Below, piece after piece: positions 54,201 to 57,200 of a DNA stretch of 64,000 nt. This DNA is from Omphiscola glabra (Eukaryota; Mollusca; Gastropoda; Lymnaeidae), in the NCBI GenBank assembly GCA_964017045.1, contig OZ024796.1:23747010-23811009 (forward strand), in the 5' to 3' direction. The notes beneath the pieces were generated by a model. That model was not told the origin of the DNA and made no database searches. It was given only the letters and a program-made list of their open reading frames with translations. Both the position numbers and the translations under genes were made by a program. The stretch's first letter is position 1. Each line of letters starts with the position of its first letter.

Positions 54201-57200
54201 ATTTTCTGGTTAGGAGAGACTTTTTGAGCCCTAAGTCGGATTCTCAGTATGACTTTTGTCACCTAAACGCTAAGAAATGTTAAACATCGATTTTCTATAC
54301 CAGTCGGGGGTAATTTTTGCGTGGAATCAATCGTTAGTCATAAATCCTTAGTCATACTACCGGCTCAAAATACTTTGTTTTGGAGTGCTTGTCATCAAAA
54401 GATTTGATTAAGATATTATTTTATCTGAAGATCGAGGGGGGGGGGGGTTAAGACCCGGGGGGGGGGGTTAAGACCCGGGGGGGGGGACAAATAGACATGA
54501 GTAAATAGTGAATTACAGTGACATGAGATAGCATTGTTCTGATAACGTCTCAGGTCCTTGGAGATATTAAACAGAGCATCCTGGCCACAGACCTGGCCGT
54601 GTTCTTCAAGAACAAGGTCACCTTAAACAACATTATCACTCAGGACAAGTTCAACTGGGACACCATTCATCACAGGTAATTGATGTGTTCTGTTCGGGAT
54701 TTTTTTTTTTTTTAAAATTAAGAAAAAAAATTTGTGAAAGGTTCTCAAAAACAAAACGTGGTAACAGCGTCTTTTATTTTGTTTAGAAACCCTAAAACTA
54801 TTGTACAAATCTAATTATTGTGTTTGTATAAACTGCACAGTGTATGAATGTTAAAAAGAAATTGAAGGGTTTGCATAGACTGCAAGTGTAAGGAAGTTGT
54901 AAAAAAAAAAAAATGAAGTGTTTTTCAAGATCACCATTCGAGTTACATGAAACCGAATGGCGGTTTGATCGTTAAGTGTCAGTTATTGATCGCACGTTGT
55001 TATCATTGGCTGCTGCGGTGCGCAGGGAGCTGCTTCGAGCCATCACAATGACCGGATGTGACCTTTGCGCCATGACGAAACCTTGGCACATCCAGGAGGA
55101 GACGGTCAAAGTGATATATGAAGAGTTTTATAGCCAGGTGATGATTCGTATGTTCGTGCTCTCGGTGTTCCTGGACTCTGATCACCAGGCTCATCCGCCC
55201 ACCCCCCCCCCTTCTTTCTCCCACATTACCTGCATGTTCAGTTATTATGGTGTGTTCAAAACGTTCTTCTTTTTCGTAGGGATTTTGGCTTTTACTTACT
55301 ATTCCCTTTTTCAGTAACTTTTTTTTCAAAAATATTTTCTGTTTACTTAAGTTTTAAAAGCATCACATTATAAAGTGATATTCAGACATAAAGCTCCTTT
55401 AATTGAATGGTTTGAGGACAACTGTCTAAATAAAAGGACATGTACAAGTTTAACCAAATTTATCAAAATGTTTAGATGAAAAGTTATCATAAGCATTTTA
55501 TCTCCTTAAGTAAGAGATTCAATAATCGTTTTAAAAAGAATTTCTGAACATAATGTTACAAATTCTTTTTTTTATATATATATATACAATATCAACTTCT
55601 AAATTTTGATTCCCTCTTTAAAAGCACAATTAACATCATTCCATGGTGCATGTTGATTTTTTTTTAAAAAATATAATTAAATTAATAGTTAATCTTTGAA
55701 AGTAAAAATACACGTATTTTTAAAATACACGTATTTTTACCAAAGCAAATACAAGGTCTTTATTTATCTGTTTTCTTATCTGTTTGAGGGGCTACAACTA
55801 AGTAGACCCTTTCACGGGGCACCCAGTGGCATGTGTAACATTCAACACTTTCAATCATGGAGACAATTCTCATTAACAATCGGAAAATAAAAGGTTTCCT
55901 ATTATTACTTATTGTTTGGTGTCTCTTTCCAAAGCTCTTTTGCTGTGTTTTTCATAGCTGTCTTGCGCTAGCCTCGTTTTCAAGTCAACATGGCTGTCGT
56001 AAATTCGCTTAAACCGAATTATCACTTCTATTCCCTGTGGTTTTTATGTTACTGTTTCTTGCGTTTTTATCTTTCCTTTTTTTTTTTTTCCTATTTCCTT
56101 TTTTTATTGTAAAGTCTGCATGCGTGGTGCTGGATGCTTTTTATGTGTAATTTTTGCTCTTTAGCCAAAAAAAAAGGTGATTTATAAACGGAAGTATAAG
56201 GTGTTTTGTTATATAAAAAATGAGAACCCCTTGGAGTTAACATAAAAACACAAGTACTCGCTAGTGGCATCATCCTCCCCCCCTTTCCCTTCTACCCTCC
56301 GTCGTGCGGGCACCGCAGGGTCTTGTTTCTTACGCCACCTGACCTTGTCCATCTTACTGACGTGACAGGTCAACACTGACGGCGGTGGCCATGACGGCCT
56401 GTGACCTGTGCGCCATGTACAAGCCCTGGGACGTCCAGCTGAACTTAGTTTACATCATCATGGAGGAATTCTGGCAGCAGGTAACATTACATAGGGTCCC
56501 CCGCGTTACGGGCCAATGATGAAAGTTATCCTGATTTAGACAACCATTCGAGGTAGCAGGTAAATTCGGGGGGCAATTCCAGGTGGGGGGGGGGGAGGCG
56601 GCTGACTTAGAGTTACGTTAACTGTAACTTGTGTTTGACGGCAGGTATAAAACTTTTTTTCATCGTTGACAGCAAAGTGGATGAAAACTGCTGGGTTGGT
56701 CTGCTAATTTGAAAGGTTATATGTTAATTATGTTAATTTAAAAGGATATATATTCATTTAAAAGGCTATGTGATAATTTAAATTTTATATGTTAATTTAA
56801 AAGGTTATATGTTATTTTAAAAGGTTATATGCTAACTTAAAAGTTTATGTGATAATTTAAAAGGTTATATGCTAACTTAAAATGTTATGTGATAATTTAA
56901 AAGGTTTTATGCTAACTTGAAAGGTTATGGGATAATTTAAAAGGTCATATGCTAACTTAAAAGGTTATGTGATAATTCAAAAAGGTATATGCTAATTTAA
57001 AGGGGTAAATGTTCATTTAAAAGGTTATATGCGCTCGAAAATGTTAAGTATAAAGCAAAATAAAAGTGAATGTAAATTGAGACTCACTGAGATACGCTTT
57101 GAGCGGAGGACGGATTGATATTTTTCATCAGATTCATTTCAACCACATTCGCTCGGCCTGCGGTTGAGTTGGAGTTTTCATACGACTCGGCGCACCCCAA

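Follow-up and report, generated by a model that had tools for sequence, protein, structure and literature searches.

The locus raises the question of whether a single snail gene may encode two versions of a phosphodiesterase (PDE) by exchanging part of its catalytic core through splicing. An initial annotation of the window, i.e., the whole 64-kb stretch of Omphiscola glabra DNA analyzed here, described two tandem alternative exons, 22a and 22b (exons A and B below), that swap 37 residues of this core. The analysis indicates that they probably form an ancient tandem-duplicated, mutually exclusive pair in a PDE10-type gene, the use of which would retune the catalytic pocket. If this is true, splicing could yield two different enzymes from one snail gene.

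The gene and its two homologous exons

The modelled part of the gene lies on the + strand between 41826 and 61187, beginning at the GAF domain next to the catalytic domain and ending with the stop codon, and comprises 12 constitutive exons plus the A/B position (14 exon entries). The gene model and Pfam place the GAF-domain exons adjoining the catalytic domain at 41826-41983, 48198-48359, and 48965-49079, and the linker with the first part of PDEase_I at 49421-49560, 49758-49844, 50912-51062, 51669-51824 (which encodes the HDLDH motif), and 52722-52772. The exon upstream of the pair (54554..54675; 122 nt, phase 0 to 2) was placed by the gene model and PDB alignment. The pair is followed by an exon at 58105..58185 (81 nt, phase 0 to 0, ending in LPKLE), an exon at 59764..59852 (89 nt), and the last coding exon (61121..61187), which ends in LMGTVV and the stop.

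Pfam PF00233 (PDEase_I) is near-complete in both forms, with 260.9 bits for A and 257.5 bits for B against a cut-off of 24.8, and one GAF domain was found in the modelled stretch (PF01590, 66.5 and 67.3 bits). When the whole catalytic part was compared with the PDB, all four distinct sequences at E <= 1e-90 were PDE10A; with the last 152 residues alone, PDE5 scored marginally above PDE10A, and many relatives carry the annotation "pde-5." On sequence grounds, the window gene is a PDE10-type class I phosphodiesterase by descent, atypical in its site. In the snail's own genome (744.8 Mb, 37 contigs; 17 candidates scored), 5 of the 12 matches to this protein part are the window gene, and the other 7, at 36-55% identity, are located in other PDE loci; the PDE10-type gene is apparently single-copy in this assembly. 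The first seven protein matches comprise six heterobranch snails and one record named sea urchin. Bulinus is nearest by tree distance; across 326 columns outside the swapped exon, its protein agrees with the window gene at 92%.

Exons A (55026..55137) and B (56369..56480) each span 112 nt and encode 37 residues. Both are bounded by AG and GT and have phase 2 to 0, being entered after two codon bases and left at a codon end. The gene model thus agrees with the initial annotation in coordinates, lengths, and phases. The homology that it had read from the letters was likewise confirmed, since a tblastn search of the 64-kb window with the 37 residues of either exon returned that exon and its partner (57% identity over 35 aligned residues, E 1.7e-11), with 20 of the 37 residues identical. 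No third copy was found by tblastn in the window, where the remaining matches have E 0.26 or worse, and a chance resemblance of A and B is ruled out by the E value together with the lack of a comparable third match. At the nucleotide level, 62 of the 112 bases are identical, distributed over codon positions 1, 2, and 3 as 22/37, 27/37, and 13/38. The excess at positions 1 and 2 (49/74) over position 3 (13/38; Fisher p 0.0024) indicates that both copies were maintained as coding sequence while silent sites diverged widely.

Residues that differ between the two forms

In the alignment with PDE10A, the swapped stretch begins ahead of the metal-binding Asp and takes in much of the helix behind it. 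The Asp is presumably Asp674 in PDE10A2 numbering, which agrees with the D674A structure entries. The metal-site His/Asp motifs YHNW, HDLDH, and CDL are all present, and the Asp and the pocket residues at the Ile692 and Phe696 positions are identical in the two forms. It had been proposed that both copies retain the metal-site Asp and differ around the pocket and in the helix that follows; the gene model and the alignment bear out the first statement, and the alignment the second.

As read from the alignment, the sharpest change between A and B sits at human PDE10A Tyr693, a selectivity-pocket residue to which selective inhibitors bond, according to excerpts of PMC12982385. The Tyr of exon A aligns with that of IYAEF in PDE10A, and exon B has a Met (IIMEEF), like PDE4D (RIMEEFF). 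Three more positions change from form A to form B: Thr688 from Thr to Leu, Thr679 from Thr to Tyr, and Trp697 from Tyr to Trp. The comparison of nine spiralian A-type rows with 23 B-type rows revealed that the Thr688 position separates the two sets fully (Thr/Ser versus Leu/Val/Ile/Cys). Separation is nearly full at 697 (Tyr in A, with Trp in Patella, versus Trp in B) and at 679 (Thr/Ala in A, with Phe in Lingula, versus Tyr/Phe in B), and column 693 is not independent in this comparison, since the B set was defined by its Met.

Structure models of relatives, A-type P0035 (Haliotis rubra) and B-type P0007 (Elysia), with mean pLDDT of 75 and 83, were used for helix retention only, excluding side-chain geometry. 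The modelled helices across the swap are the same (315-330 and 338-361 in P0035; 324-339 and 347-370 in P0007), and the ten-residue block pLDDT over the swapped exon ranges from 84 to 94. In Foldseek, PDE10A catalytic domains rank top for the A-type model and behind PDE6 chains that also cover the GAF part for the B-type model, with TM to target of about 0.9 for the matches of both. The residue positions make it likely that the two forms differ in function, whether in affinity, in cAMP/cGMP balance, or in inhibitor binding.

The exon that follows the pair carries an unusual residue of its own. Its last codon (58183-58185) encodes the Glu of LPKLE, followed by VGF, which aligns with the purine-binding Gln of class I PDEs (Gln726 of PDE10A, GQLGF); the Gln that is invariant in characterised class I PDEs is absent from the window gene. 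Among 126 listed relatives, this column holds Glu in 22 and Gln in 104 (85 assigned by pattern and 19 by eye), so that the Glu is no slip of this assembly. The rows with Glu are 16 named mollusc proteins, the brachiopod Lingula, the annelids Lamellibrachia and Paralvinella, and P0012, P0014, and P0127. The mollusc proteins without it are those of Octopus and of a divergent land-snail pair (Bradybaena P0019 and Candidula P0017), and the nemertean and rotifer proteins have Gln. The divergent PDE10-type protein of the two land snails has the swapped-exon Met alongside a Gln in the purine column, and Bradybaena additionally has the usual Met/Glu form.

In 2 of the 126 proteins, those of the pearl oyster Pinctada imbricata (P0015) and the alvinellid worm Paralvinella palmiformis (P0123), this next exon appears twice, with the first copy ending in Gln (ETQ and NSQ) and the second in Glu (QLE and KLE). 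To judge from these sequences, the doubled exon is likely a merged alternative Gln/Glu exon pair; true double inclusion may also occur, because the exon keeps the frame. In the 64-kb window, tblastn found the Glu copy only and no Gln-type copy. We tentatively suggest, as an extension that falls somewhat short of probable, that PDE10 of the mollusc/annelid ancestor had two adjacent splice-selected modules, Tyr/Phe-or-Met and Gln-or-Glu, giving up to four pocket types. Of the two choices, gastropods would have retained the first and become fixed for Glu, and the pearl oyster and the alvinellid worm would retain both copies of the second module. A two-module PDE10 of this kind, if true, would be a natural test of the part played by the invariant glutamine in cAMP/cGMP choice.

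Age, spread, and splicing of the pair

The spread of the two exon types was assessed in 127 proteins, namely the best 120 of 1941 matches and 7 from two region searches. The database holds one representative per 90% cluster, which makes isoform pairs within one species invisible. At position 693, the 126 proteins classed have Phe in 86, Met in 32, Tyr in 6, and Ser in 2; P0022 (Trichoplax), without the search pattern, was left out. Named spiralians account for 27 of the 32 Met rows (14 mollusc, 2 annelid, 1 nemertean, and 10 rotifer proteins). The remainder are a tardigrade, the exon of which otherwise looks A-type, and P0012, P0014, P0029, and P0127. P0012, an 819-aa protein on a contig of 3300 nt, and P0014, with 763 aa on 3643 nt, use B and are presumably cDNA. 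The named spiralians with A-type exons among the matches listed are Haliotis rufescens X3, H. rubra, Patella, Mactra, Octopus, Lingula, and Watersipora.

The predicted protein P0005 of Bulinus truncatus contains A and B copies in the same order, with extra residues between them; most simply, the gene predictor would have swallowed both exons and some intron. Haliotis is split, with H. rufescens X3 and H. rubra being A-type and H. asinina X2 B-type, and a quick tree of the rest of the protein unites the three (SH-aLRT 99). On this rest-of-protein tree, the fewest changes between Met and non-Met number seven, which would fit annotation that randomly samples two exons.

An exon tree was built from 37 columns and 41 rows, i.e., 38 of the 127 proteins, picked for spread, the two window exons (winA and winB), and the Bulinus A copy; 6 of its 35 inner branches are starred. 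It places 22 Met proteins and winB in one group (23 rows, 96/94*), with the tardigrade Met row outside. Approximately unbiased (AU) tests reject as single clades winA with winB (p 0.0013), heterobranch A and B (p 0.0076), gastropod A and B (p 0.0137; 17 rows, leaving out the divergent Bradybaena/Candidula pair), and Haliotis (p 0.00012); the groups other than winA with winB were picked after the exon tree had been viewed. Since these 37-column trees reject a duplication within heterobranchs or within gastropods, the pair appears to be old. The plain reading would be one duplication before the gastropods, with annotations displaying one exon each. A recent duplication is ruled out by the codon-position divergence and the AU tests.

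The reading frame constrains how the two exons can be combined. When only A or only B is included, the model stays open from the GAF domain onward for 496 aa, up to the stop at 61187. With A and B together, the first stop falls at residue 430, 12 codons past the end of A (residue 418), and with neither copy it falls at residue 395. The initial annotation stated that joint inclusion shifts the frame and that exclusive use is thereby forced. The shift and its early stop are correct; as to the second part, the frame shows only that transcripts with both exons are nonproductive.

Under the exclusive use favored here, the spliceosome would pick A or B for each mRNA, and transcripts with both or neither copy, being frameshifted, would be lost. 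The two enzymes would have the same fold, GAF part, and metal site and different base pockets, form A with the PDE10A-like Tyr and form B with the PDE4-like Met at Tyr693, together with the changes at 688, 679, and 697. The outcome would probably be an altered substrate affinity or cAMP/cGMP balance and altered inhibitor binding in an enzyme in which the purine-binding Gln is already Glu.

The best surviving alternative is that B is the working exon and A a fading relic, intact-looking and yet unspliced in freshwater snails. All proteins of Biomphalaria, Elysia, and Bradybaena among the matches listed are B-type, and exon A changes more quickly than the other parts of the protein, sharing 30 of 37 residues with the Bulinus A copy where those parts share 92% (binomial p 0.026); exon B shares 36 of 37 with its Bulinus counterpart. 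The 3' splice site of exon A has 11 pyrimidines in 20, with the nearest branch-point-like motif (YTNAY) at -40, which also favors a relic, but the same pyrimidine count occurs at exons C3, C5, and C8 of this gene. Against a relic, exon A keeps its frame, its phase, both splice sites, the metal-site Asp, and 28 of the 37 residues of the Haliotis A exon. Decay of one exon in relatives, which the initial annotation had named as evidence against its reading, is absent in Bulinus P0005, the one relative showing both copies, where A reads intact. We consider it unlikely that A is a relic.

Less likely still is that A serves mainly as a regulatory poison exon, with inclusion of A and B silencing the gene through nonsense-mediated decay. 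The stop 12 codons after A would suit this role, but A alone gives a complete frame, and the protein it encodes is kept as far as Haliotis and is similar to the Phe/Tyr version common among other animals. An assembly artefact or recent local duplication, for which the abundance of tandem repeats in the region could be invoked, is scarcely credible given the low base identity of the copies and the fact that each is closer to relatives in other genera than to the other copy.

As to how exclusive use of A and B might be enforced, steric exclusion by a short intron was ruled out, as the GT-AG intron between the exons (55138..56368, + strand) measures 1231 nt. No U12-type 5' splice site was found in the three introns around the pair, and the only U12-like branch motif, a weak one, precedes exon C8; the splice sites appear to be of the U2 type, and a U2/U12 incompatibility is unsupported. 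Docking and selector sequences were sought in 60-nt windows with a step of 30, compared with eight shuffles. Between the intron following A and the one following B, the predicted pairing reaches -55.9 kcal/mol, where the shuffles gave -32.7 to -40.7 kcal/mol; for the two other intron pairs it is within the shuffle range. The value of -55.9 stems from a C10 run about 65 nt past A (in 55198-55257) and a G11 run about 105 nt past B (in 56541-56600), and it drops to -16.6 when the runs are masked. Pairing of these runs could loop out exon B. The 64 kb contain 53 such runs of 8 or more. The probability of a chance match like this one is near 0.35, and the C10/G11 pairing is probably due to chance. 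Farther downstream, an array of 30 tandem units of 30 bp (58852-59759) ends at the 3' splice site of the exon at 59764-59852. The preceding array unit also has TTTCAG, like the acceptor of this exon, so decoy acceptors may exist.

Comparison with other phosphodiesterases and known exon switches

An exon HMM scan covered 13 PDE loci of the same genome, i.e., the window and 10- to 30-kb stretches of 12 others. Two full copies of the exon were found in just 2 of the 13, the window gene and a PDE9-like gene on contig C13; the loci were drawn from the best-scored candidates, so weak copies elsewhere could be missed. The PDE9-like copies (G000 C13:16583705-16589829, L009 5403-5507 and 7484-7588) lie in tandem, are 105 nt each, AG/GT bounded, and in frame with phase 0 to 0, and the second copy together with the next exon has its best match in PDE9A (E 2.3e-39). 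At three loci, C2, C9, and C12, the segment seems to be divided between two exons. The duplication of the same catalytic segment in two PDE families suggests that this exon is a place where the pockets of PDEs can be varied.

Human PDE10A, from the best-scoring solved family, has the same catalytic fold and, like form A, a Tyr at the selectivity-pocket position; it differs in the Gln at the purine position, where the snail gene has Glu. Human PDE10A is not known to have more than one version of the swapped exon. The same Glu as in the natural snail gene is present in a laboratory mutant, PDE9A Q453E, which excerpts of PMC3069055 describe as still active, with a kcat/Km that is lower by about 50-fold for cGMP and by 5-fold for cAMP and with cGMP selectivity dropping from 337 to 29. 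The authors conclude there that the Gln is critical for binding and unlikely to be a key determinant of discrimination between cGMP and cAMP (PMC3069055). This mutant is, however, an engineered single change in another family, whereas the snail Glu is common to many relatives, so that partner residues may have adapted.

Molluscs are classic models for cAMP in learning, and with Tyr/Met and Gln/Glu enzymes as a natural series on the same scaffold, the cAMP/cGMP question could be tested in them directly. The swap affects the residue exploited by PDE10A-selective inhibitors, as given in excerpts of PMC12982385, and adjoins a natural replacement of the Gln disputed in cAMP/cGMP choice, the "glutamine switch" debate treated in excerpts of PMC3069055. 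Among the open-licence PMC papers listed in the literature search, no report of this exon pair or of another such pair in a PDE active site was found, and the term "mutually exclusive" is absent from the first 300,000 of the 708,272 characters of a PDE review (PMC13095499).

Remodelling of an enzyme core by mutually exclusive exons has precedents, of which coq-2 is nearest in logic to the snail pair. We know of few enzymes in which splicing switches part of the catalytic core. As described in PMC7434440, coq-2 exons 6a and 6e are internal, mutually exclusive, and of equal length (134 nt) in Caenorhabditis elegans, helminths, molluscs, and annelids, and removing one of them abolishes almost all rhodoquinone synthesis. 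As in our reading of the snail pair, equal-length exons remodel the core of an enzyme, with one type widespread and the other restricted. The enzyme is a different one, and for coq-2, RNA data demonstrated the alternative splicing and removal of an exon the function (PMC7434440), whereas for the snail pair both are predicted from sequence.

A second comparison is offered by human CYP4F3, a P450, the alternative exons of which are mutually exclusive. Titles cited in PMC7434440 state that alternative splicing switches its substrate specificity. This gene shares with our reading of the snail pair a splice-switched enzyme specificity and differs in that its splicing and promoters were studied by experiment. 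In kind, then, the snail device has precedents; what is new and telling is its place, the active site of a PDE, with the unusual Glu beside it.
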